A stretch of DNA of 25,732 bases, taken from positions 16,311-42,042 of the IMG/VR virus record IMGVR_UViG_3300030107_004969; one strand, written 5' to 3'. Under the pieces are notes generated by a model, which ran no database searches, was not told the origin of the DNA, and saw nothing but the letters and a program-made list of their open reading frames with translations. Positions within the stretch are counted from its first letter, which is position 1. The number at the start of each line of letters is the position of its first letter. The translations under genes were made by a program, and so were the position numbers. Positions 5,730-19,826 of the stretch are shown here, one piece after another. The DNA is from a virus.

Positions 5730-8612
5730 ATGGGATGTAATTATAGTACTAAAACCAAAAATGAACATATTGATAATATGGGAGAAGTTTGGAAAAAATG
5801 GACAAGCCATAAGAGTATAAAAGATAGATATAGAAATTCAGATGGTACTTTAAATATTGATCTTGCTAGAGAAAGACTTGTTGATTTTGCTCAATATAAG
5901 CTAAAACTCCCATTTGACCAGGATTATGTATTGTCTAAAGGGGAAATAAGCAGGTTAAATGTTGAAATAGATGCATATTCCAAAGATCTTAAAGGTAAAT
6001 TTTCTCAAATAGCTGGTATAGTTCCTGAGGGAATATCAAAACAAGATCCAACTTCTAGAAAATTTTACTTAGATCTAAATAATATATTGAATATGACTCG
6101 TGTTAATACGGGTAAAAAAGAAAATGCAATGGCATCTATTACTTCACATTTTCTTGATGCTTATACAAATGCTGGTATGAATAGGAAATATTTTAAGGTA
6201 GGGATTGATGCTGTAAATGAGCTAAGAAATCTAAGGCAACAAGCAATGGAAGCCCCAAGTCCAGAAATAAAAAGAAAATTTGAACAGCAAATAGAAAAAT
6301 TTGTAAATGGAGATGAAGGTTTTTTTCTTAGACAGTTTAAAATATTAAATGAAATGTCTAGTAGCGATCTTAAAAGAGTTAGAAAAGAAGGAAAATATGT
6401 TGATCCGATAACTAAAAAAGAATCATTATTTGATCCAAATATTGTAAGTGCTGCTGAAAAAAGTAGGAATTATTTAGATAATATGGGTAATGTTTTTGTT
6501 AGGGGGCTTGAAAAATTAAAAGATGTAGTTGATCAAAAGTATAAATATGATACTTCTACCGCTAAAAGATTAAAAGGGGATATAGACACTTCAATTGCTT
6601 CTATAAATGCATCTATAGATAGAGGTGGGTATTGGCCTGGTGTTTTCCTTCAAAATCTCGTAGATGTTAAGATCGGGATGGAAAAAATGATCAAATCTAA
6701 AAATAGAGAAGGTGTTATATCAGATGCACAAAATCTATCAAATATATTAAGAAATATTCCAGACCTTCCAGATCAGGCAAAAGCAAGAAATCCAAATTTA
6801 AAACATGTATATGACCAAGATCCATTATTTGTATTAAATCAATATGGCAAGGATGCTGTAGCGTTTAATAAACTTGTATTTGCTCAAGACTCTTTATTAA
6901 AAGCTATGAGTCAAATACCAAAAACAAATAACACTCAATTTTTAAATGGATTGAAAAAATTCTTAGTAGAGGAATATACTGTATTTACAGAAGGTACTCG
7001 TTCAAGACCTGATTGGGTAAATAATATGGTATATTATGTTAATGCTTTTCAAACAGCAAGAACTATGGGATTTAATATAACAGGAGCGGCTAAAAATGCT
7101 GCAAGTGCTGTACATTACTTTTCTCATGTAGGTCTTGGTGCTGTTAATAGAACAGGGAAATCATATAGACATAATGAGGATGGAGTACGAGATATATTAG
7201 ATAATCTTGAAAAAAGAGCAGGATATAAATTCGTAGATCCAGCATCTGAATTGTTTTCTGAAGGTTTGATAAAGAGGTCTGACTTTGATCAAGGTAGGAT
7301 AGAGTTTGATCCAATAAAAGGTACTATAAAATATAATGGAAGCCAGTTAAAAGATCAGATAGGAGAAGTTGGAGAATGGTCAATGGGTAAGCTCCTTACT
7401 TTTCATCGAATGACAGAGAATTGGCAACGTAGATGGATGTTTAGAACTGCTTTTATACAAAAATATCAACAGTTATTAAAGAATTCTACAACCCTTCCTA
7501 AAGATCAGATAGAAAGATTTGCAGAAAATCATGCATTGGAAATGGTAAATGCATTCGCTTATGAATATGCACCTCATGCTAAGGCTAAACCTTTACGTGG
7601 CACAGGTCATGAGGTAAAGGTAGATGAATTCGGTGAGCATATAATAATGAAACGTCCTATTATTGGCGGAATGAGTGAAGTTGCATTTCATTTATTGCAT
7701 TATCCAATGTCTCTTGCTGAAACACATTTAAGTGCATTGAAGGGAGCTGGCAAAGCAATTCAAGCTGGTCAATGGAATGCAGATGAATTAATGTACGCTG
7801 CTAGATATGCAGGTGTATTTGGTGTATTGCAGGCAGGTTCAATTCTGTTAAATGTAGATCTTAATAATTTATTTGAAAATGAAACTGTTAGTAGAATGAG
7901 AAGAGTTCATGACGATCTAACAGTAGGTGGTAAATATGAAATATCAGATCTTTTAAATCCTGATTATACTTCAATGGGTGAGTTATCATTTGATGAAATG
8001 GATGCAGGTGGAGTAGACACATTGAAAGTATCTGCTGTAGCAAGAGATCGTGGGGATAGAGAAACTGCAAGAACTGATGAAACAGGAGTTACTGTATCAG
8101 GTACAACACAAAGACCAGTATCTGGAGCTAAGCAATTCTTTCCTCAAGATTTTATTCAATCTGGAAGGAAAAAAAGTACCTTTGGTCTTTCAGCAGAAAT
8201 ATTTGGCCCAACTGTAGGACATATGAAATACGGTCTCATAGCAAGTGGATTAATGGATCTTGAGCATAGTTTATTTAATCAAATAGTATTTGGTAATGTT
8301 GATTATAGCAAGGATGATGAAGAAACTGCTAGATATGAAGCATATCAATACAGTACTGAATATGGTAGGTTTGTTAATAAAACATGGCCTGCAGTTAGAG
8401 ATGGACGTGGTATGGATCTTGTAAGACATTGGTTAGGTTTATATCCAAGAAAATGGACTAAACAGTATCATGAAAGTATTTTTGGGCTATCTGAATCAAA
8501 GCAACAGGCACAGGCTAGAAAAAGAATAAGGGGGTTGGAGCCTGAAGCTGCATCTGCTGTTGGTGTTTTAGATCAAATGTTAGAAATGGAATATAAAGGG
8601 ACAGGGTATTAA
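5730..8612 (+). CDS. 960-aa putative internal/ejection virion protein
   Basis: A complete 960-residue frame starts at ATG 5730 with AGGTGAT upstream as ribosome binding site, and ends inside the left arm of the terminator-like hairpin at 8598-8632. It is hydrophilic and largely helical in appearance for the first 430 residues or so, followed by a segment with TARTMGFNITGAAKNAAS. That style of alanine- and asparagine-rich stretch is seen in large polyvalent-type phage proteins thought to enter the cell with DNA. A mildly hydrophobic stretch lies around residues 690-710. No catalytic motif was recognised. Its position directly after the giant protein and at the end of the rightward operon suggests a structural or internal virion role, which is inferred. 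Confidence 0.85.
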   Translation: MGCNYSTKTKNEHIDNMGEVWKKWTSHKSIKDRYRNSDGTLNIDLARERLVDFAQYKLKLPFDQDYVLSKGEISRLNVEIDAYSKDLKGKFSQIAGIVPEGISKQDPTSRKFYLDLNNILNMTRVNTGKKENAMASITSHFLDAYTNAGMNRKYFKVGIDAVNELRNLRQQAMEAPSPEIKRKFEQQIEKFVNGDEGFFLRQFKILNEMSSSDLKRVRKEGKYVDPITKKESLFDPNIVSAAEKSRNYLDNMGNVFVRGLEKLKDVVDQKYKYDTSTAKRLKGDIDTSIASINASIDRGGYWPGVFLQNLVDVKIGMEKMIKSKNREGVISDAQNLSNILRNIPDLPDQAKARNPNLKHVYDQDPLFVLNQYGKDAVAFNKLVFAQDSLLKAMSQIPKTNNTQFLNGLKKFLVEEYTVFTEGTRSRPDWVNNMVYYVNAFQTARTMGFNITGAAKNAASAVHYFSHVGLGAVNRTGKSYRHNEDGVRDILDNLEKRAGYKFVDPASELFSEGLIKRSDFDQGRIEFDPIKGTIKYNGSQLKDQIGEVGEWSMGKLLTFHRMTENWQRRWMFRTAFIQKYQQLLKNSTTLPKDQIERFAENHALEMVNAFAYEYAPHAKAKPLRGTGHEVKVDEFGEHIIMKRPIIGGMSEVAFHLLHYPMSLAETHLSALKGAGKAIQAGQWNADELMYAARYAGVFGVLQAGSILLNVDLNNLFENETVSRMRRVHDDLTVGGKYEISDLLNPDYTSMGELSFDEMDAGGVDTLKVSAVARDRGDRETARTDETGVTVSGTTQRPVSGAKQFFPQDFIQSGRKKSTFGLSAEIFGPTVGHMKYGLIASGLMDLEHSLFNQIVFGNVDYSKDDEETARYEAYQYSTEYGRFVNKTWPAVRDGRGMDLVRHWLGLYPRKWTKQYHESIFGLSESKQQAQARKRIRGLEPEAASAVGVLDQMLEMEYKGTGY

Positions 8613-10941: not shown

Positions 10942-11122
10942 AATTGTCCTCCTTTGCTATTGCATCCCAATCTGGTTCTAATATATCAGGATCTAAATCC
11001 TTTCCACACATTCCACAATTAAGACTTTCAGGTACATTTGTATCTTTTTCTTCAGCTTGATATTCCATTTCATCTCTAGGATGTTGGCATTCAAGTTCTT
11101 TTGTTGTTATTATTGCTATCAT
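10922..11122 (-). CDS. 66-aa acidic zinc-binding-like protein
   Basis: ATG 11122 overlaps the stop of the primase-helicase gene (ATGA), so translation is probably coupled. The product contains CQH (12-14) and CGMCGK (36-41), a possible single zinc site, followed by a very acidic tail (DPDILEPDWD). Function unknown; small proteins of this kind are common in phage replication arms. Confidence 0.6.
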   Translation of the reverse strand: MIAIITTKELECQHPRDEMEYQAEEKDTNVPESLNCGMCGKDLDPDILEPDWDAIAKEDNYEKNDE

Positions 11123-12861
11123 CCGATTAATCTCAATCCATTAAGTGAAAGATCAACATGTAATGTTTCTTTTTCACGATTAGCTGTGCTATCAAGTTTT
11201 AATCCCTTTATTAAACTCTTTTCTTTTACATCAAATAAAGGTTCTAAGGATAATACTTTATTAACATTGTATGCTACTCTAAATGAACCCTTAGAAGATG
11301 CTATGTTCATTCCTTCATGAAATGCACTTTTAGTAATTTCACTAATAACAAATACTATAAGATCATACTGTACAGCAATCTCTGTTAATACTTGTGATGC
11401 TTCTTCAACTTTCATATTATTATCTTTCATTCTACTTCTTAGAAGACCTAAATGATCGACTACTAATATTTCTGGTTTTTCTGGTAACATTTGAATTCGT
11501 TTTTCTATTTCATATGGATAACATGAATTATAATCAACTTGTAACCAACTAAAATCAACATCAAGTCCATTTTTGTTCTTACTATAATGTGTGGTTAGAT
11601 CATTTTCATCCCATCCTTTTTCTATCATAATGAATCTTGACATCATTTGTCTTGGGGACATTTCAAGTTCCATCATATAAGTATTCTTTTTAAAGAAATT
11701 TATCCAATTCATAAGTAACATTGTTTTCATGCTTTTGGGAGGTGCTTGTAACAATACTACTTCTCCAGGATAGATGGGAAAACTATCTACTTGTTCATAC
11801 ATATTATTAAAGTTAATTGGTACAATATCACTTGTATAAAAGTCTATTAGTACATTTTCCATATCAGTTGCTGTCATTACTGATTGATTATTCTTTGATT
11901 TATATAGAAAACAAGTAGATTGACATAAAGAATCTTTTATAGAATCACTACATCCATAGTTATAACCACTGCCTTCATTAGCAATGTAACAAGATGTTAT
12001 AATCTTATCTAACTCTTCTTTTGTAAATGGAACATCATGTTTATCTACACGTTGTCTCCAATCTTCCATTATCAATCTAACTACTTTTTCAGGATATCTC
12101 CATCTTAAGTGAGAACCTAGTCTTAAAGCTGTCATATGTCTACTTCCTTGACTAACACCTTTTAACATAAGTTGTATACATGTATAATTAGTTGGATCTG
12201 GGTCTCTTCCTAATTCTGCATCTACCTTAAGTGGTTTTGATTCTTTTTCTCTTGTTCTGTCTAATACATCAAATACTGGTTCACATATCATTTGTGGATA
12301 TTTGAATTCTCTTCTAGGTTGATTCCTAAAATCCAGATCAAAAGCTTTAAATTCGCTTTCAGTTAAAGGTATTTTCCATCTCTTAGATTTTGTATTAAGA
12401 GTATTAGGTACTCTTATTATTCTTGTTTTATCAGTAACAGATGGATCAGCATATTTATATATACCTATAGCTGATAATCTATCTTTTACCTTGAGATGTA
12501 GATCTTTGCACGGTTCCCATTTAAATGCAGATGAGGGTATATTCACATGAAATCCACGACCACTAAAGTATATTTGATAAGGTATTTGTTTCTTATACAA
12601 TATTTCCATCAATATTAATGTTTTATGTTGTGCTTCTTTAGTGTCTTTTCCATCAACATCTAATATTAATTCATCAGGCATATAGATAAGACCATCGAAA
12701 CCAGCAAGTTTTTTCTTTTTATTGAAATACTCTATTACATATTCATCATAGTCCCATAAGGACATGAAGGTATCTTGGGGTGTACCTTCGAGCTGTGACA
12801 TTTTATTACTTTCATGAAAATGATGTCTATTAGATAATGATAATGCAAACTCTTTAATCAT
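11119..12861 (-). CDS. Primase-helicase fusion (AEP primase plus DnaB/RecA-like ATPase)
   Basis: 580 residues; ATG 12861 overlaps the preceding stop (ATGA) and follows AAGGAG. Residues 1-200 look like an archaeo-eukaryotic primase: catalytic-type LDVDGKD (67-73), SGRGFHVNIP (100-109), and DPSVTDKTRIIRVPNTLN (139-156). A linker with GVSQGSRHMTALRLG and a Cys cluster (C304, C313, C317) resembles the C-terminal region of phage AEP primases. Residues 360-545 form a RecA/DnaB-type ATPase with P-loop APPKSMKT (373-380), Walker B ILVVDH (465-470) and VISEIT. The final Gly of the P-loop (GKT) is replaced by Met. The protein should unwind and prime the phage replication fork. It sits downstream of the SSB and 100-aa genes. 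Confidence 0.88.
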   Translation of the reverse strand: MIKEFALSLSNRHHFHESNKMSQLEGTPQDTFMSLWDYDEYVIEYFNKKKKLAGFDGLIYMPDELILDVDGKDTKEAQHKTLILMEILYKKQIPYQIYFSGRGFHVNIPSSAFKWEPCKDLHLKVKDRLSAIGIYKYADPSVTDKTRIIRVPNTLNTKSKRWKIPLTESEFKAFDLDFRNQPRREFKYPQMICEPVFDVLDRTREKESKPLKVDAELGRDPDPTNYTCIQLMLKGVSQGSRHMTALRLGSHLRWRYPEKVVRLIMEDWRQRVDKHDVPFTKEELDKIITSCYIANEGSGYNYGCSDSIKDSLCQSTCFLYKSKNNQSVMTATDMENVLIDFYTSDIVPINFNNMYEQVDSFPIYPGEVVLLQAPPKSMKTMLLMNWINFFKKNTYMMELEMSPRQMMSRFIMIEKGWDENDLTTHYSKNKNGLDVDFSWLQVDYNSCYPYEIEKRIQMLPEKPEILVVDHLGLLRSRMKDNNMKVEEASQVLTEIAVQYDLIVFVISEITKSAFHEGMNIASSKGSFRVAYNVNKVLSLEPLFDVKEKSLIKGLKLDSTANREKETLHVDLSLNGLRLIG

Positions 12862-13231: not shown

Positions 13232-13828
13232 TTAGAAAGGAGGTTCATCAGTAGTTGTTGTTTGCGTTGTTGTTTCAATAACATTAGCAACTTCAGCAAC
13301 TTTTTCCTTTATTTCCTCTGTTGACATTTCCAATAATCCATTTGTTGAGCTTGAATCAGAAGGTTTTTTGTATTGTTCATAATACTTCATACCTTGACCC
13401 ATCCAATATTCAACATCTTTTTCAGCGAATGATAATACATCACCTTCTTGAATAACTGGAGCAACACGATTTAATACTCTAAAGTATCCTTCTTCATTCT
13501 TATAGAAGAAAACATGAAGTTTTTTTCCATTAAGATTGACTGCTTCATCATCATATTGCAAACTCTTTTTACCAGAAGAATCCTGAACTTCACCAAGAAT
13601 ACCAGCATTTGCTAATCTGAATAGTCTTGCTATTGCAAATTCTTCACCAGTATCTTTTGACTTAGCTTCATATAAACGAAGATTTATTGTTTCAGGATAT
13701 TCTTCAAACCAAGCATCAACATAACGTATATCGTTATACATTCCATACTTAGCGTCTTTCAAAGTAACTTCTTTCCAGCCGACAGACCAATCTCCGCCAC
13801 CTGAGTTACTCATTGTTTTTATAGCCAT
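13232..13828 (-). CDS. Single-stranded DNA-binding protein (SSB-like)
   Basis: 198 residues; ATG 13828 overlaps the previous stop (TAATG) and its ribosome binding site (AAGGAG) lies in the last codons of the ATPase gene. The first 150 residues are strand-rich and suit an OB-like fold (INLRLYEAKSK, KLHVFFYKNEEGYFRVLN). A flexible Ser/Thr-rich stretch then leads to the terminal residues DEPPF, which mimic the acidic tip of bacterial SSB (DDDIPF) used to recruit partner proteins. Pairing with a Sak4-type ATPase directly upstream is typical of phage recombination modules. The SSB role is inferred from tail and context; the N-terminal domain is divergent from E. coli SSB. Confidence 0.75.
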   Translation of the reverse strand: MAIKTMSNSGGGDWSVGWKEVTLKDAKYGMYNDIRYVDAWFEEYPETINLRLYEAKSKDTGEEFAIARLFRLANAGILGEVQDSSGKKSLQYDDEAVNLNGKKLHVFFYKNEEGYFRVLNRVAPVIQEGDVLSFAEKDVEYWMGQGMKYYEQYKKPSDSSSTNGLLEMSTEEIKEKVAEVANVIETTTQTTTTDEPPF

Positions 13829-14574
13829 TATGACTCCTTATTTACTAAGGTTTGTAAACTCCATGTCTTACCAGATCCTGGACTCCCTATAATAAGAATC
13901 TTTGCAGATGTGAAGTTCTTTTGTTTTACAGCATCTAATACCAATTGAAAATCTTGGGGAATCTCAGAAGGTAATAGATTTGTTCTGTCTTTAGCATGAT
14001 CATACTTTTCAGTATGTTTTGTTTGCCAAACATATTTAGTTTCACCATTAGGAGCTTCAATAGTTCTTGTATAAAATACAAAATCAAACCATTTACTTAT
14101 ATCTTCTTTGGTGCTACCATCTATATATGGCAATACTTTTGTAGTTCCATCATCAAGGTCTCTTAATTTACCATGAACAGTCATAACTAAAACACCTGGT
14201 ATTCTTGTGATGAATTCTAATAACATATCAAGTGTATTCTTTAGTTTACCCCAATCTTGCATTTTCATTCTTCCTGTTTTATCAACAAGACTTCTTTGAT
14301 ACTTCTTTGATAACTCACTGAATGTATCGAGTATTAATGCATCTATTTGAGTTCCATTCTTGGGTATGGTCTCTAAAACCTCTTGATCTATTTCAATACC
14401 ACCTATCTTTGTTTTATGTACTGCTTTTTGAACAGTATAAAGATCAGATATTATCTTTTTGAATTGATCGAATGTAGTAGGTGCAAGTACAGGATATCCA
14501 AATAACTCTTGTATTTCATCTGGGCCTCCAAGTGTTTGCGAACCACGTTCAAGATCAAACATTAAACATTTCAT
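13828..14574 (-). CDS. Circularly permuted RecA/Sak4-like ATPase
   Basis: 248 residues from ATG 14574 (AAAGGA upstream, ATGA overlap with previous gene). The motif order is inverted. The protein begins MKCLMFDLERGS, which in Sak4/AAA_24 proteins follows the P-loop helix. Walker B is ALILDTFSE (79-87), followed by VMTVHGK (130-136), the sensor-like strand. The Walker A motif GSPGSGKT is at residues 230-237, only 11 residues from the C-terminus, preceded by NFTSAKILII, the usual N-terminus of the family. Joining the C-terminal helix (TLVNKES) to the N-terminus restores the normal order. Both ends are fixed by clean overlaps with neighbouring genes, so a broken frame is unlikely. The likely role is annealing or strand exchange with the adjacent SSB. 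Confidence 0.85.
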   Translation of the reverse strand: MKCLMFDLERGSQTLGGPDEIQELFGYPVLAPTTFDQFKKIISDLYTVQKAVHKTKIGGIEIDQEVLETIPKNGTQIDALILDTFSELSKKYQRSLVDKTGRMKMQDWGKLKNTLDMLLEFITRIPGVLVMTVHGKLRDLDDGTTKVLPYIDGSTKEDISKWFDFVFYTRTIEAPNGETKYVWQTKHTEKYDHAKDRTNLLPSEIPQDFQLVLDAVKQKNFTSAKILIIGSPGSGKTWSLQTLVNKES

Positions 14575-14737: not shown

Positions 14738-15208
14738 TTATCTTGGCAAGTGTAAATGATCAGATACCCATCTACGAACATTTTGATTTTGAAAATTCTT
14801 CCTATCTCTTATTTTATCAAGATCAGGAAAGGCAAAATCTCTTGCATATGCTTTTCCTTTCATGCTTTCTGCTTGTTGGAAAAATATTACTCTATCATTA
14901 TCAACAGGTGTTGCTATAAAATCACAATGATTTGGTGTTATTTTCACCATTAATGAATGACCATAAGTAGTTTCTGCAACTCTAGAATGATATTTAACTT
15001 GTATTGATATCCACCTTTTTATTAAGGTTCTTTTACCCCATTTTCTAGGTTTACACACTACCATATCAACACCAAGATCACAATCAGGTCTTGATACGAT
15101 ATAACCATTCTCTAATAAAAGATTGGATACCATATTTTCACCTATTGTTCCCTGAACCATTGTACCAACATCTAGCACACATGTTTTTTTGTATCGTTGT
15201 TTCTTCAT
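14738..15208 (-). CDS. PD-(D/E)XK-like nuclease of unknown specificity
   Basis: 156 residues; ATG 15208 overlaps the previous stop (ATGA). The signature is GTIGENMVSNLLLENGY (20-36, E24 as helix acid), RPDCDLGVDMVV (40-51, D48) and ISIQVK (67-72, Q70 and K72). This is the E...D...QxK arrangement of restriction-like folds, as in small PD-(D/E)XK proteins of phages and in Hjc relatives. It may trim recombination intermediates or attack host DNA. It sits upstream of the Sak4-like/SSB genes and downstream of the ubiquitin-like cassette. The exact substrate cannot be told from sequence. Confidence 0.7.
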   Translation of the reverse strand: MKKQRYKKTCVLDVGTMVQGTIGENMVSNLLLENGYIVSRPDCDLGVDMVVCKPRKWGKRTLIKRWISIQVKYHSRVAETTYGHSLMVKITPNHCDFIATPVDNDRVIFFQQAESMKGKAYARDFAFPDLDKIRDRKNFQNQNVRRWVSDHLHLPR

Positions 15209-15474: not shown

Positions 15475-15492
15475 TTAATTTCCTTTTATTAA

Positions 15493-15591
15493 AGAGAGAG
15501 ACCACGCTTACTGCTCGCTTACGGAGTTGAATCGCATATGCTTAACTGACAGTATTAACGAATGGTGGTTTTTAGCCGTAACTCTCTCTCT
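15493..15591 (-). promoter_or_regulatory. Structured intercistronic element after E1 gene
   Basis: The gap is closed by AGAGAGAGA (15493-15501) with TCTCTCTCT (15583-15591). Inside, ACCAC (15501-15505) can pair with GTGGT (15565-15569) and TTACGG (15519-15524) with CCGTAA (15576-15581); the last pair crosses the ACCAC helix, so it would form a pseudoknot or an alternative fold. The core ATCGCATATG (15531-15540) is shared with the element at 18634. No gene fits this gap. Confidence 0.6.
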
Positions 15592-15594
15592 AAA

Positions 15595-16254
15595 TTATTT
15601 TGCCATTAATGTCATAGATGGGAAGTGAAATAGTATTTCTTTTTCGTATGATTGTTTAGTTGCTATCTTGGAAATAGCATTTGTAATGAATGAACCAGCC
15701 ATATTACTACAATAACTTGTAGCTTTTGCTGTACATGGTTCTTCATCCGCACTATGATCATCATACCAACAATCTTTGTAATTTTCAAGACTTGGTTTCT
15801 TGAATACATACTGTTGATATGTTTGTGCACCCATACGTCCATCTACCAGTATCACTGGCTTCAATCTTTTAACACTACATGCTATCTCAACAGCCTGTAG
15901 CCTACTTGACATATTATCAAATCCTAAGACAATAACATCATTTCCATGAGGTATATACTGAGAATTATCCATGAATTTTTCTTTGACCTCTATAATTACA
16001 GGATCTTCGCATATATCATATAAATAATCTCTTAATACATCTACTTTGTGTTTTCCAATAGAAGAATGGGTGTACTGACTGACTCCAATATTTGCATTGG
16101 ATACTTTGTCATTATCGTAAAGAGTAAACTTTTCGCCACCCGATCTGGCTATTTGAGTGGCTGCGGAACTGCCAATAGCTCCGCAACCAAGTATGTGAAA
16201 ATGAAAATTATCAAAGTTGTTGAAAATATCTTCAAACCTCGATGTTCTGTCCAT
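15595..16254 (-). CDS. E1/ThiF-like ubiquitin-activating enzyme
   Basis: 219 residues; ATG 16254 follows GGGAGAGAAAA and overlaps the JAB gene by 23 nt. A Rossmann nucleotide-binding loop HILGCGAIGSS (20-30) is followed by LYDNDKVSNANIG (45-57), where E1 enzymes have DxDxVxxxNLNR, and GKHK (67-70). GFDNMSSR (111-118) matches the D-x-x-x-x-R region. C174 in EEPCTAKATSYC is the candidate catalytic cysteine, like the PCT context of E1s. E1 enzymes adenylate the C-terminal Gly of a ubiquitin-like protein and may pass it to Cys. The two zinc CxxC pairs of MoeB/ThiF are missing, and the usual NxxR arginine is not evident, so it is a divergent member. Confidence 0.85.
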   Translation of the reverse strand: MDRTSRFEDIFNNFDNFHFHILGCGAIGSSAATQIARSGGEKFTLYDNDKVSNANIGVSQYTHSSIGKHKVDVLRDYLYDICEDPVIIEVKEKFMDNSQYIPHGNDVIVLGFDNMSSRLQAVEIACSVKRLKPVILVDGRMGAQTYQQYVFKKPSLENYKDCWYDDHSADEEPCTAKATSYCSNMAGSFITNAISKIATKQSYEKEILFHFPSMTLMAK

Positions 16255-17143
16255 TTTTCTCTCCCAAATTTAGTAATTTTAGAGCACTATATCCAGCATA
16301 AACACCGCATTGCTCCAAGAGTTCATCTTCTGTAAGTTCTTTTATATCAAAGGTTTTGTCCATTCCTTTAAGCATTTTGTTCCATTCTTTAACAGACTTC
16401 AACCAATCCTTGAAGATCATAGTTCCTTCTAGGAATTCATCATTCCAATCATCTAACATATCAACAGTTTTTTGTAATAATGGATCATTATTTTCTCTTC
16501 CGTATCCATTATAACTATACCCACCATAATTACCATAATCATAATCATATATTGATGTTTGTCTTGAATCTGGTAATGTATATTTATTACCTGTATTCCA
16601 TGTTCTACCTTTGAATGTTTTGTAGTTTGCTATGTTTGTTTTAGGTTCCTTACATAGTTTAGATACAGAATCTGTTATAGCTTTTGGTACTTTCTTAGCT
16701 TTTGCACCTAGTATATTTAATTCTATATCTTTATGTGCTTCAATAGGATTCCATACACATACTCTGAATTTGTATTCTGAACGAATATTGACAACAAGAA
16801 ATGCTGCCCAATCTCCACTATTATACTCTTCCATAGTACTTGTATCTGTACCAGACCAGAATGCACTCATATTAGCATGTGAATGCCACCAAACAAATCT
16901 TACATCATTACCATGTTTTTCTGCACACTTTACATAATAATCTGCAACTGCTTCTTTATCCATCGTTGTCGTACCGCCAGTTACTTCCTGTTTTAATATC
17001 TCAGGTTCAGATATTATCATATTTCCATCTTTATCTGGTTTAGCAACCATAAAACCACCTATTTCTGCACTGAATTTGTCATAGGATGCTTGGGCAAAAT
17101 CTATAACTTTTTTCCAGTCCTTTTGTGAAATGTAAAACTCCAT
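16232..17143 (-). CDS. JAMM/JAB metalloprotease (Ubl-processing isopeptidase)
   Basis: 303 residues; ATG 17143 is preceded by TAGGAGTT. The catalytic JAMM signature is complete: E27 (SAEIGGFM) and HSHANMSAFWSGTD (87-100), giving H87, H89, S97 and D100 with exact HxH-x7-S-x2-D spacing. JAMM enzymes use zinc to cut isopeptide or peptide bonds after the diglycine of ubiquitin-like proteins. The domain covers roughly residues 1-150. A Tyr/Gly-rich linker (YDYDYGNYGGYSYNGYG, about 200-216) leads to a helical tail rich in acidic residues. Position between the E2-like and E1 genes and in the same operon as the GGK-ending Ubl indicates Ubl maturation or deconjugation. Enzymatic motif is seen; the substrate is inferred. 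Confidence 0.9.
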   Translation of the reverse strand: MEFYISQKDWKKVIDFAQASYDKFSAEIGGFMVAKPDKDGNMIISEPEILKQEVTGGTTTMDKEAVADYYVKCAEKHGNDVRFVWWHSHANMSAFWSGTDTSTMEEYNSGDWAAFLVVNIRSEYKFRVCVWNPIEAHKDIELNILGAKAKKVPKAITDSVSKLCKEPKTNIANYKTFKGRTWNTGNKYTLPDSRQTSIYDYDYGNYGGYSYNGYGRENNDPLLQKTVDMLDDWNDEFLEGTMIFKDWLKSVKEWNKMLKGMDKTFDIKELTEDELLEQCGVYAGYSALKLLNLGEKNGQNIEV

Positions 17144-17158
17144 TTTAACTCCTATTAT

Positions 17159-18613
17159 TTACTGTTGTGATACCCATTCCAACATACTTCTTTCTAAGCT
17201 TTCTTCATCTGAGATAGTTATTTCACGTCTTGGATAATTATCATCAGATCCTTCATAACTCCAATTAAAGTTTCCTGGATATGTGTCTTCTACATTTAAA
17301 CATTCCATGAATTGATGCTTCTTTCGTTGCCATCCTCTTAATCTTGTTCTTTTCAATTCATCAATATCATGTTGAAATCCACTACAATCTTGTCTTACTT
17401 CATTAATACAGTATTTCATGCAAAGAGATTGTCTATCTTCTACATTAGCAATATGATTTGACATTCTATTTGTACAATCAGTTGTATTCATACCTATTCT
17501 ATCTAAATATTCACTATTTAATACGTCATCATGTTTACTTGGATGTCCATAATAACCCATAGTTATATTATTTAATGGATGAGTTACACCCATTCTAAAT
17601 GTTGATAGCCATGTAAAAACTGTTTCAGACCATTTTACAAAATTTATATCTTCCATTCTTCCAAATAGATAGTTAAAATTTCCATAGCATTGACTACTTG
17701 GTCTATTGTAATAAATTTTCCATTTACTAGGATCACTTTTTTCATCAATTGAATGATCTGGATCATAGCTAGAACCAGGATACTGAAGAAATGGATGTTT
17801 CACTCCTTGTATCAATGGTTTAAACCAGAAAGATGAAGCTACATTCATATCATGAGCAAATCTACCTCTTGGTCTAACTTTTACTGCCCAATACATTAAT
17901 GCTTTTAAACTTACTTGATGTAATGCAAGAACATGTCCAGTATTGTATCTGTATACAGGTATTGTATCATCACCATCATATACATTCATTGGAATATCTT
18001 TAAGTGGTTGAATTAAGTATATTCTTTCACTAACTTCATCTAAGATTATACTTACTTGTTCACTTTCAAATTTCCACATTTCATTCAATACATCATCAAG
18101 AAAAGATACAATATTTTCATTTCTATCTTTATGCACATAGTATCGAACAACATCTTTATTATCGTTTGAATACATACTAAGATATTCTTCATATACATGA
18201 AATAGATCAATTGCATCATTTATAGCACTTTCTTTTATAGTGTCTATTATATTCGGATCATCTGTCCAAATAGCTCCAGCAGATCTTTTTCTTGCTAAAT
18301 GATTATCAATTTCAGCAAGCTTACGTTTAAATCTATTTAAATAATAATTACCTCTATTTCTATCAGGTTTATCAAATATTTCTAGTACGCTTGAGTATCT
18401 TGTCTGGTGTGTTCCAAGATAATATGACCTTAACCTTTCAACTTTATTATAAGTACCAGGTTTCCAGTTAAATTTCTTTGTGACTTCAAGATCATCTATA
18501 TTTAGATAATCAGGGGTATAACGATTTATATCATGTAATAATGAGAGAAGATCAGCTTGTGGGCCAATAGGAATATCTTCAAAATTAGCAAGTTCAATAA
18601 ATTCTTTTAACAT
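17159..18613 (-). CDS. 484-aa protein with E2-like signature
   Basis: The start is ATG 18613, which has AAGGAG five bases upstream; an earlier GTG sits on the ribosome binding site and was rejected. The N-terminal 250 residues are helical with no recognised motif. Around 255-345 comes SSFWFKPLIQGVKHPFLQY (HPF at 273-275) and, 33 residues on, SSQCYGNF with C309. The HPx...CxG pattern is what prokaryotic E2-like (UBC-fold) proteins show around the catalytic Cys, though the spacing here is longer than the usual 5-10. A later cluster (C380, H387, C398, C402, C410) may bind zinc. Between Ubl and JAB, it is the only candidate E2 or ligase. Assignment is tentative; it could be an unrelated partner. 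Confidence 0.5.
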   Translation of the reverse strand: MLKEFIELANFEDIPIGPQADLLSLLHDINRYTPDYLNIDDLEVTKKFNWKPGTYNKVERLRSYYLGTHQTRYSSVLEIFDKPDRNRGNYYLNRFKRKLAEIDNHLARKRSAGAIWTDDPNIIDTIKESAINDAIDLFHVYEEYLSMYSNDNKDVVRYYVHKDRNENIVSFLDDVLNEMWKFESEQVSIILDEVSERIYLIQPLKDIPMNVYDGDDTIPVYRYNTGHVLALHQVSLKALMYWAVKVRPRGRFAHDMNVASSFWFKPLIQGVKHPFLQYPGSSYDPDHSIDEKSDPSKWKIYYNRPSSQCYGNFNYLFGRMEDINFVKWSETVFTWLSTFRMGVTHPLNNITMGYYGHPSKHDDVLNSEYLDRIGMNTTDCTNRMSNHIANVEDRQSLCMKYCINEVRQDCSGFQHDIDELKRTRLRGWQRKKHQFMECLNVEDTYPGNFNWSYEGSDDNYPRREITISDEESLERSMLEWVSQQ

Positions 18614-18633
18614 TTGCACTCCTTTTTAGCTTC

Positions 18634-18690
18634 GGAAGGAGCAATACAGAGATGTCATCGCATATGATGAACAGAGCCGTTACTCCTTCC
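18634..18690 (-). promoter_or_regulatory. Structured intercistronic element between Ubl and E2-like genes
   Basis: GGAAGGAG (18634-18641) pairs with CTCCTTCC (18683-18690), flanked by AGC/GCT. The core TCATCGCATATGATGA (18655-18670) is a hairpin; ATCGCATATG (18657-18666) is identical to the element at 15531-15540, and both cores continue to AAC (CTTAAC and ATGAAC). Read leftward, GGAAGGAG could also pair with Shine-Dalgarno-like sequence. Function unknown. Confidence 0.6.
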
Positions 18691-18725
18691 TACGCTAATT
18701 CAATTAACGAAATCGATTCCGATGA

Positions 18726-18929
18726 TTATTTTCCGCCTTTCTTGTTGGTCTTTACAGCTGCGACCCTATCATTATCACGCAGTTGATGATCATCGTTTAC
18801 TACAGCTCGATTTACGTTAATAGCTTCAGTTGTGAGACCTCTTTCAACACGAAGTTCACCAACAGTTTCGGCATCAACTGTTTGTTCTTCGAATCTACTT
18901 GATCCTTCACATAGATATATATCTGGCAT
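18726..18929 (-). CDS. Ubiquitin-like (ThiS/MoaD-type) protein ending GGK
   Basis: 67 residues; ATG 18929 follows AAGGAGGCAAT. The C-half, INVNRAVVNDDHQL then RDNDRVAAVKTNKKGGK, follows the beta-grasp sulfur-carrier pattern of ThiS/MoaD (VNG...DD..L..GD.V...GG). The diglycine is at residues 65-66 and is followed by one Lys. ThiS and MoaD normally end in free GG, so this protein looks like a precursor needing cleavage. The operon supplies a JAMM protease with complete catalytic residues and an E1. Conjugation to proteins, rather than sulfur transfer, is the more likely use because no thiamin or molybdopterin genes are nearby. The length is close to that of ThiS. Confidence 0.85.
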   Translation of the reverse strand: MPDIYLCEGSSRFEEQTVDAETVGELRVERGLTTEAINVNRAVVNDDHQLRDNDRVAAVKTNKKGGK

Positions 18930-18957: not shown

Positions 18958-19091
18958 AAAACTTTCTGTCAGTGACCGCTCGACAGTGATCCTTAATGCC
19001 AAACTTAAGCAGCTCAGTTCGGGGATCAGCGTGCAGGAGTTTCACCTACATATTACGTCCATTTTAAAGTGTGGTTACACTCCCAAGTTTT
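18958..19091 (-). promoter_or_regulatory. Structured intercistronic element upstream of Ubl
   Basis: Outer helix AAAACTT (18958-18964) with AAGTTTT (19085-19091), which overlaps the stop codon of the upstream 209-aa gene. Inner helices: CTGTC/GACAG (18966-18986), GATCC (18988-18992) with GGATC (19023-19027), CTTAA/TTAAG (18992-19009) and GGAGT (19036-19040) with ACTCC (19079-19083). The nested multi-helix layout argues for a folded RNA between the two genes. Confidence 0.6.
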
Positions 19092-19719
19092 AATCTTCTT
19101 TAGGTTCCGCCTTATATCTTTTCCATATACCCATTGGATTGAAGAAATTAAAGATAGGTTTTATTCTATTTAAATAATCTCCCTTACCATCCATAGTATC
19201 TGGTTCTAATCCATTTGCTTCCAGTACTTCAGGTTTATAGAATGGAGTTTTATCCATTGTACGAGTATAAAACTTAAATAGATCACTATTTTCTTCGTCT
19301 TCAAGTCTTTTTAATCGCTTACCTGCTTCTACTGGTGGTAAACCTTTTGAATCCCATGTAATGTGTAATGGATATCCTTCTTTACCTTTATGTCTTTGAT
19401 GTGTAATAATATCTTCATTGTTAGTAGCATCATACACTATTGCTTCAGTGTCATCTATTACTGACTGTCTTAGTAGAAATACTCTTGAGGCTAGTATTTC
19501 ACCATCATCATAAAGACCATGATGTATTATCTGTGTCCAATCACCATCACTTACTTCACTAGGAAATATTGGATTACCAGGTTCATAATCATATGTTATA
19601 TGAAAAGGACTAATTGCAAATACAGCTCTACCTGTATCTTCATTTAATACAGGACTGACAAGATGGCATGCTGTATAAATAGGTATTTTACCATCTTCTT
19701 GTACTTCTATATCACTCAT
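19090..19719 (-). CDS. 209-aa hypothetical, first gene of the Ubl cassette
   Basis: ATG 19719 is preceded by AAAGGAGATGTT. No signal peptide or membrane segment. The N-half has mixed strand-like stretches (IPIYTACHLVSPVLN, AVFAISPFHITYDYE, EILASRVFLLRQS); the C-half is charged (LKRLEDEENSDLFKFY) and ends PMGIWKRYKAEPKED. Three His residues (CHLV, PFHI, IIHHG) and two acidic stretches could bind metal but no motif is clear. It lies just upstream of the Ubl gene and may be a target, partner or ligase; no function is claimed. Confidence 0.7.
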   Translation of the reverse strand: MSDIEVQEDGKIPIYTACHLVSPVLNEDTGRAVFAISPFHITYDYEPGNPIFPSEVSDGDWTQIIHHGLYDDGEILASRVFLLRQSVIDDTEAIVYDATNNEDIITHQRHKGKEGYPLHITWDSKGLPPVEAGKRLKRLEDEENSDLFKFYTRTMDKTPFYKPEVLEANGLEPDTMDGKGDYLNRIKPIFNFFNPMGIWKRYKAEPKED

Positions 19720-19811
19720 AACATCTCCTTTAAGTTAAGCTGGTGATCAAACCGCTTGGGTTGGAGCAAACAGATGCAAAACATGCGGAGTTTCACATAA
19801 AGATCACCAGC

Positions 19812-19826
19812 AAGTATAAATCTTTG
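19812..19826 (-). repeat. 15-nt direct repeat in ncRNA region, copy 1
   Basis: AAGTATAAATCTTTG lies between the 73-nt hairpin-closed domain (19739-19811) and the 250-nt helix-closed domain (19823-20073). The identical copy is at 20438-20452, 626 nt away, again at a junction between two helices. It may be a linker of fixed sequence or a protein-binding site. Confidence 0.7.

Follow-up and report, generated by a model that had tools for sequence, protein, structure and literature searches.

A 25,732-nucleotide (nt) stretch of the IMG/VR virus record IMGVR_UViG_3300030107_004969 (positions 16,311 to 42,042 of this 42-kb record; hereafter, the window) carries four adjacent leftward open reading frames (ORFs) encoding a ubiquitin-like protein (Ubl), an E2-like protein, a JAMM metalloprotease and an E1-like adenylyltransferase. 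These genes probably constitute a dedicated viral cassette for Ubl conjugation and deconjugation, with recombination and replication proteins as its likeliest targets; the E2 activity, the transfer chemistry and the class of substrate are what we infer within this reading. An ORF check placed the four genes side by side and found every residue named in a first-pass annotation that had read the locus as a minimal Ubl pathway:

18726..18929, minus strand: Ubl of the ThiS/MoaD-type beta-grasp class, 67 amino acids, ending NKKGG-K, with G66 as the candidate processed C-terminus
17159..18613, minus strand: E2-like protein, 484 amino acids, with an N-terminal helical domain, a core at about residues 129-363 and then a Cys cluster
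16232..17143, minus strand: JAMM/MPN+ metalloprotease, 303 amino acids, with E27, H87, S88, H89, S97 and D100 and a variable C-terminal region
15595..16254, minus strand: E1-like adenylyltransferase of the ThiF/MoeB fold, 219 amino acids, with candidate catalytic C174

Scans of viral contigs with the JAMM and E1 proteins retrieved 377 IMG/VR stretches that encode a JAMM relative. When profiles of the four proteins were run over all ORFs of 83 non-redundant JAMM loci, the full set was recovered in 51, confirming that it recurs as a viral unit, and in 50 of these 51 the order Ubl, E2-like, JAMM, E1 is kept on one strand; many of the loci without the full set are short or cut contigs. This recurrence of gene content and order, together with ThiF and Prok-JAB domain matches above their cut-offs, places the cassette beyond chance. 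Among 84,980 species genomes, a similar JAMM pattern gave 11 weak matches (25-31% identity), all in metagenome-assembled genomes, whereas viral loci number 377, and the cassette thus appears to be carried by viruses.

The JAMM and E1 genes of the window overlap by 23 nt, and 15 nt separate the end of the E2-like gene from the start of the JAMM gene. Across relatives, the JAMM and E1 genes overlap or lie at most 3 nt apart in 57 of 60 loci, an arrangement seen in translationally coupled units. The E2-like ORF is best read as 484 amino acids from the ATG at 18613, since AGGAG lies just upstream of this codon, whereas the alternative GTG start (486 amino acids) overlaps the AGGAG. Compared with three close relatives, the E1 is 78-82% identical, the Ubl 64-67%, the JAMM protein 62-68% and the E2-like protein 34-46%; the ratios of nonsynonymous to synonymous substitution rates (dN/dS), for which dS is near saturation, are 0.07-0.15 for the E1 and 0.17-0.33 for the Ubl. 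Judged by identity, the fastest-changing member is the E2-like protein, the enzyme expected to meet substrates.

The Ubl and its putative processing protease

The fold proposed for the 67-residue protein in the first-pass annotation, a beta-grasp, agrees with its AlphaFold2 model (predicted local distance difference test score, pLDDT, 89). The model has the strand and helix order beta-beta-alpha-beta-beta and aligns with ThiS (2lek) at Z 8.9 and 1.5 Å over 61 amino acids (VIA), as predicted for a Ubl of the ThiS/MoaD/SAMP type; its closest folds are ThiS, Mth1743, TtuB and MoaD. In sequence searches the window protein matches Pfam ThiS below threshold (0.0099), and profile matches include MoaD (5e-4) and SAMP2 (0.009). 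Pfam ThiS is matched by 14 of 47 Ubl relatives, the best at 1.9e-5, and by a tandem relative at 4.8e-9.

A Gly-Gly pair occurs in 58 of 60 distinct Ubls, including that of the window. The number of residues following it is 0 (12 cases), 1-4 (30), 5-21 (11), 60 (2) or 117-126 (3), and these tails, which thus span 0-126 residues, have no evident conservation; the single Lys of the window protein is the mildest case of a tail. Of the 51 Ubls of up to 100 amino acids, 47 have Gly-Gly within their final 12 residues, compared with 5 in shuffles, a contrast that does not translate into a probability, since the sequences are related. A Gly-Gly followed by an unconserved tail of variable length is what is predicted if the JAMM enzyme frees the Gly-Gly from a precursor, and the trimming step suggested for the window therefore finds the Ubl tail that it needs. 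Two Ubls (loci L022 and L025) run on past Gly-Gly into a domain with weak similarity to DUF7303, and locus L027 encodes a tandem di-Ubl whose first unit ends in KGGG and second in KGGR.

The JAMM protein matches Pfam Prok-JAB (PF14464) at 2.6e-6, above the cut-off, and contains the JAMM/MPN+ pattern E-x(n)-HSH-x7-S-x2-D, of which E27, H87, S88, H89, S97 and D100 are invariant in all 76 sequences. Its best PDB profile match is a Caldiarchaeum Rpn11-like deubiquitinase (1e-12), with Rpn11 and CSN5 also matched.

The E1 and the E2-like protein

The 219-residue protein belongs to the E1 superfamily, as the first-pass annotation had supposed: it matches Pfam ThiF (PF00899) at 3.1e-21 with 76.1 bits versus a cut-off of 28.1, and its PDB profile matches are UBA5, ThiF, TcdA and MoeB. 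Residues G23, G25, D47, N55, K70, D113, R118, D138 and R140 are present in 79 of 79 viral E1s and C174 in 78, and the GxG, DxD (D47, D49), Asn, Lys and Asp elements of the ATP site are conserved. The ATP site departs from the full canonical pattern three residues after N55, where 69 of the 79 proteins have Val and none has Arg. A DGR triplet at 138-140, invariant in the viral set and absent from the five PRTRC and Cap2 E1s compared, may compensate for the lost Arg. Judged from its sequence, the protein is thus a member of the E1 fold with an altered active site.

Relatives of the 484-residue protein were reached via the neighboring JAMM and E1 genes, the E2-like alignment being too divergent for scanning; a scan of viral contigs with this protein alone returned no relative. 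Across 63 sequences the shared motif is [HF]P[YF]...CxG...W...T-x-P-L-N, represented in the window by H273-P274-F275, C309-Y-G311, W335 and P346-L347-N348. The candidate catalytic Cys309 is invariant (63/63), as is Pro346 (63/63), followed by Pro274 and Trp335 (62/63 each) and Asn348 (57/63). [HF]P[YF] is found in 62 of the 63, with His in 40, and does not form the classical HPN. The succession of HP, Cys, helix and PLN resembles that of E2 enzymes. PRTRC-type E2s likewise do without the classical His (PMC1779556).

The AlphaFold2 model of this protein (pLDDT 86.7; predicted template modelling score 0.80) places a helix (168-179) before a four-strand meander (187-192, 197-213, 221-235 and 258-266), followed by the loop with HP and Cys and a second helix (325-337). 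Structural alignment (VIA) with UBE2L3 (7b5l_D) is weak, covering 127 residues that span 129-363 at Z 4.5 and 4.2 Å, and a 383-residue chain of the BRISC complex, presumably BABAM2 with its UEV domains, aligns over 131-338 at Z 3.9. Both alignments fall on the predicted E2-like core with low scores and lend support to the assignment rather than proof. Foldseek with the whole model found nothing significant in PDB, only kinase helices at E > 0.06, whereas in BFVD six viral proteins match the whole fold (E 3e-17 to 3e-15). The E2 assignment is accordingly supported by predicted topology, motif and context. As for the suggestion that the 484-residue protein conjugates the Ubl, motif and predicted topology support it, whereas neither profiles nor fold comparison matched it significantly to known E2s.

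Downstream of the core, residues 380-410 hold a Cys cluster, with C380 in 61, C398 in 46 and C410 in 52 of the 63 sequences as well as C402, which reads C-x2-C-x5-C in some relatives and is possibly a zinc or Fe-S site. A PRTRC_F-like N-terminus was also considered for this protein; hhalign gave it no support.

Operon context and related systems

Library scans identified terminase subunits, RusA and a protein like Gam in this virus record, along with a Sak4-like annealase and a DnaB/primase protein, from which the source virus is taken to be a tailed double-stranded DNA phage. Two of these genes lie in the leftward operon of the cassette:

13828..14574, minus strand: Sak4-like single-stranded DNA (ssDNA)-annealing ATPase (phrog_124, 1e-24), same operon, downstream of the E1 gene
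11119..12861, minus strand: DnaB-type helicase/primase (phrog_19, 5e-19; phrog_16345, 4e-15)

This neighborhood is conserved. Within 2 kb downstream of the E1 gene and on the same strand, a Sak4-like gene is found in 28 of 60 loci, an ERF-like gene in 13 and a phrog_11717 gene in 10, together 51 of 60, Sak4 and ERF being distinct annealase families at the same position; a DnaB/primase homolog lies on the same strand in 48 of 60. By guilt by association, the likeliest field of action of the cassette is DNA recombination and replication, and the proximity of an annealase or phrog_11717 gene in 51 loci makes recombination/replication proteins the likelier substrates. The first-pass annotation had looked instead to host defence or the virion as targets. 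These two targets find no support: the cassette occupies a replication/recombination operon, mostly right next to and ahead of an annealase gene, and nothing in the sequences points toward virion proteins.

Several further features of these loci deserve mention. The phrog_11717 protein that replaces the annealase beside the E1 in ten loci (e.g., L070 7617-8225, L084 7744-8355 and L054 6972-7592) may, from its position, be another ssDNA-annealing or ssDNA-binding family. In gut phage MT835544 (L002), the cassette is followed directly by a reverse-transcriptase-like ORF with a YADD motif (6954-8291). Just upstream of the Ubl gene of the window, a 209-residue ORF (19090-19719, minus strand) with homologs in 6 of 60 loci has two invariant HxT[YW] motifs (H40/T42 and H119/T121) that recall 2H phosphoesterases; searches of Pfam, PHROGs, NCBIfam and PDB sequences returned nothing for it. 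A 156-residue protein (14738-15208, minus strand) has a GE..V / D.GVD / IQVK pattern like that of PD-(D/E)XK nucleases and a weak phrog_5018 match. Strong hairpins are predicted on the minus strand in the intergenic regions 15475-15594, 18614-18725 and 19720-19819 (z -2.6, -3.4 and -3.0, respectively); an Rfam scan of the window returned no family.

The closest known arrangement is PRTRC, the operon type 6d of Iyer, Burroughs and Aravind (2006, PMC1779556), which comprises a Ubl, an E2-like protein, a JAB protein, an E1, a helical protein and often ParB. The plasmid order is ParB, E, C, F, B, A, ThiF, and the succession C (Ubl), B (E2), A (JAMM) and ThiF (E1), all as separate genes, is shared with the phage cassette, as are CxG at the E2 Cys and C-S/T at the E1 Cys. 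ParB_N-domain genes occur upstream in two viral relatives (L014 and L017), with homologs in 4 of 60 loci, whereas no ParB-related gene was recognised in the window. The viral Ubl keeps Gly-Gly and a variable tail, whereas the examined PRTRC C proteins lack a terminal Gly-Gly; the viral E2-like protein has about double the length and escapes profile detection; and the viral E1 has Val in place of Arg and has gained DGR. The PRTRC ThiF model scores 28.2 bits on the window versus a required 144.75, and the models for its JAMM, E2-like and Ubl proteins found no match; judged by these models, the window does not belong to PRTRC. Given these differences in Gly-Gly tail, E1 site and E2-like size, the cassette is a new form of the known prokaryotic Ubl-E2-JAB-E1 sets.

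Other systems share parts of this logic. Type II CBASS, with Cap2 (an E1-E2 fusion) and Cap3 (a JAB protein), has a similar E1 core and uses a JAB peptidase, whereas the phage cassette has a dedicated Ubl, and no CD-NTase, effector or E1-E2 fusion was found among the scanned proteins. Bil and Bub are bacterial defence operons of Ubl, E1, E2 and deubiquitinase (DUB). The viral set has the same four parts and differs in being phage-encoded, in lying in a replication module, in its ThiS-type Ubl and in an E2-like family matched by no model searched. The TapI-TapK pair of lambda and T1 (Ubl-like plus JAB/NlpC; PMC1779556) likewise joins a phage Ubl to a JAB peptidase, although without E1 or E2 and in a structural (tail) context.

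A related, unrecognised cassette is probably present in crAss001 (gp79, gp78, gp77, gp76) and Flavobacterium phage FpV4 (gp53-gp50), where the gene order is that of the window and the JAMM and E1 proteins are homologous to those of the window. Tblastn from the window E1 finds the E1s of crAss001 and FpV4 and from the window JAMM protein that of the crAss-like Kolpuevirus, and the catalytic residues of the Kolpuevirus and FpV4 JAMM and E1 proteins align with those of the window. The crAss001 gp78 contains GYMHSH...QTPCTG, and gp78-type proteins share MHSH...PCxG; gp79 has a beta-grasp-like start with TTLGELK, and the beta-grasp-like gp79/gp53 contain SGA or SGG. By contrast, profile comparison of the Ubl and E2-like proteins with the window families gave no significant score. 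A primase gene and a uracil-DNA glycosylase gene flank the set in crAss-like phages, and genes of the same kinds are found beside it in FpV4. The corresponding records (crAss001, L128 1226-5636; FpV4, L003 2595-6606; Kolpuevirus, L001 3947-8195) label the E1 'thiamine biosynthesis protein' and the likely Ubl and E2-like genes hypothetical, and these annotations are probably wrong; the label 'metalloprotease' is also present in the crAss001/FpV4 set. A literature search, with preprints and most subscription papers outside its coverage, found no paper joining crAss-like phages, ThiF and ubiquitin and none connecting tailed phages to CBASS and ubiquitin-like conjugation, and gp79-gp76 are unmentioned in the crAss001 papers examined.

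Proposed pathway and alternative explanations

In the proposed pathway, the JAMM enzyme would cut the Ubl precursor after Gly-Gly, removing one Lys in the window. The E1 would then adenylate the C-terminal Gly and hand the Ubl either to its own C174 or straight on to the next Cys. C309 of the E2-like protein would accept the Ubl for transfer to an amine of the target, from which the JAMM enzyme could also remove it again. The targets would be the phage's own recombination/replication proteins or host factors recruited there, with SUMO-like control of annealing or replication as the outcome. Several observations weigh against such a pathway. The cassette has no E3; the Ubls of L002 and L026 lack Gly-Gly; and the Arg found three residues after the conserved Asn in all five PRTRC/Cap2 E1s compared occurs in 0 of 79 viral ones. 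Most concern the 484-residue protein, which has no Pfam, NCBIfam, PHROG or PDB profile match, has HP[YF] without Asn where the classical motif is HPN, and aligns with UBE2L3 at a rank below unrelated kinases matching its N-terminal helices; hhalign with PRTRC_B and Cap2 was not significant, although the control comparison of PRTRC_B with Cap2 failed too.

The lack of a significant E2 match speaks for the possibility that the 484-residue protein is a scaffold or substrate receptor and that the E1 transfers the Ubl directly, as in archaeal SAMP conjugation, which works without an E2. We consider this unlikely, given the invariant Cys with CxG after HP[YF], then W and PLN in E2 order, and the E2-like predicted topology. 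A sulfur-carrier role, in which a Ubl of the ThiS/MoaD/TtuB type is activated by the E1 to form a thiocarboxylate for thiolation of tRNA or a metabolite, with the JAMM enzyme serving only to mature the Ubl, would fit the closest folds of the Ubl and the fact that, among NCBIfam models, the E1 scores highest against sulfur-carrier ThiF; bacterial operons also join ThiS/MoaD-like Ubls, JAB and E1 to sulfur metabolism genes (PMC1779556). We give this role little credence: a sulfurtransferase, rhodanese, cysteine desulfurase or tRNA thiolase was not found among the scanned window proteins, there would be no need for the conserved E2-like gene and its invariant Cys, and the JAMM protein is nearest to Rpn11-type deubiquitinases.

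Counter-defence, by modifying or sequestering host immune proteins (e.g., through mimicry or overload of CBASS Cap2/Cap3 or Bil-type Ubl systems), would fit the fast evolution of the E2-like protein in comparison with the E1, as expected of a changing target. The plasmid proteins most closely related to the E1 also include CBASS Cap2, the E1 is matched by PADLOC E1-E2 models, and the 2H-like gene lies upstream. The cassette is, however, tightly linked to annealase and helicase genes rather than to a defence island, and it is conserved over diverse viruses instead of being patchy within this clade, which leaves this reading rather improbable. Modification of the phage's own virion proteins, for which the location of TapI/TapK near tail genes in lambdoid phages offers a precedent (PMC1779556), is very improbable, as the cassette is in the leftward replication module, outside the structural module, and the terminase homologs found are on the opposite strand.

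Dedicated conjugation and deconjugation directed at recombination and replication proteins remains our preferred reading. In a more far-reaching form, which we put forward tentatively and do not favor on balance, the cassette would be a complete virus-specific SUMO-like pathway for DNA annealing and replication, with a new E1 class and E2 family, shared by the IMG/VR phages analyzed here and by crAss-like and Flavobacterium phages. In bacteria, Ubl conjugation has been encountered chiefly in antiphage defence or in orphan plasmid operons. The present findings suggest that phages may tag proteins during their DNA replication; if so, viruses own a reversible protein-tagging system and provide a simple model for the evolution of the E1-E2-DUB cascade, and if the crAss001 genes are as they appear, the question is testable in a culturable phage.

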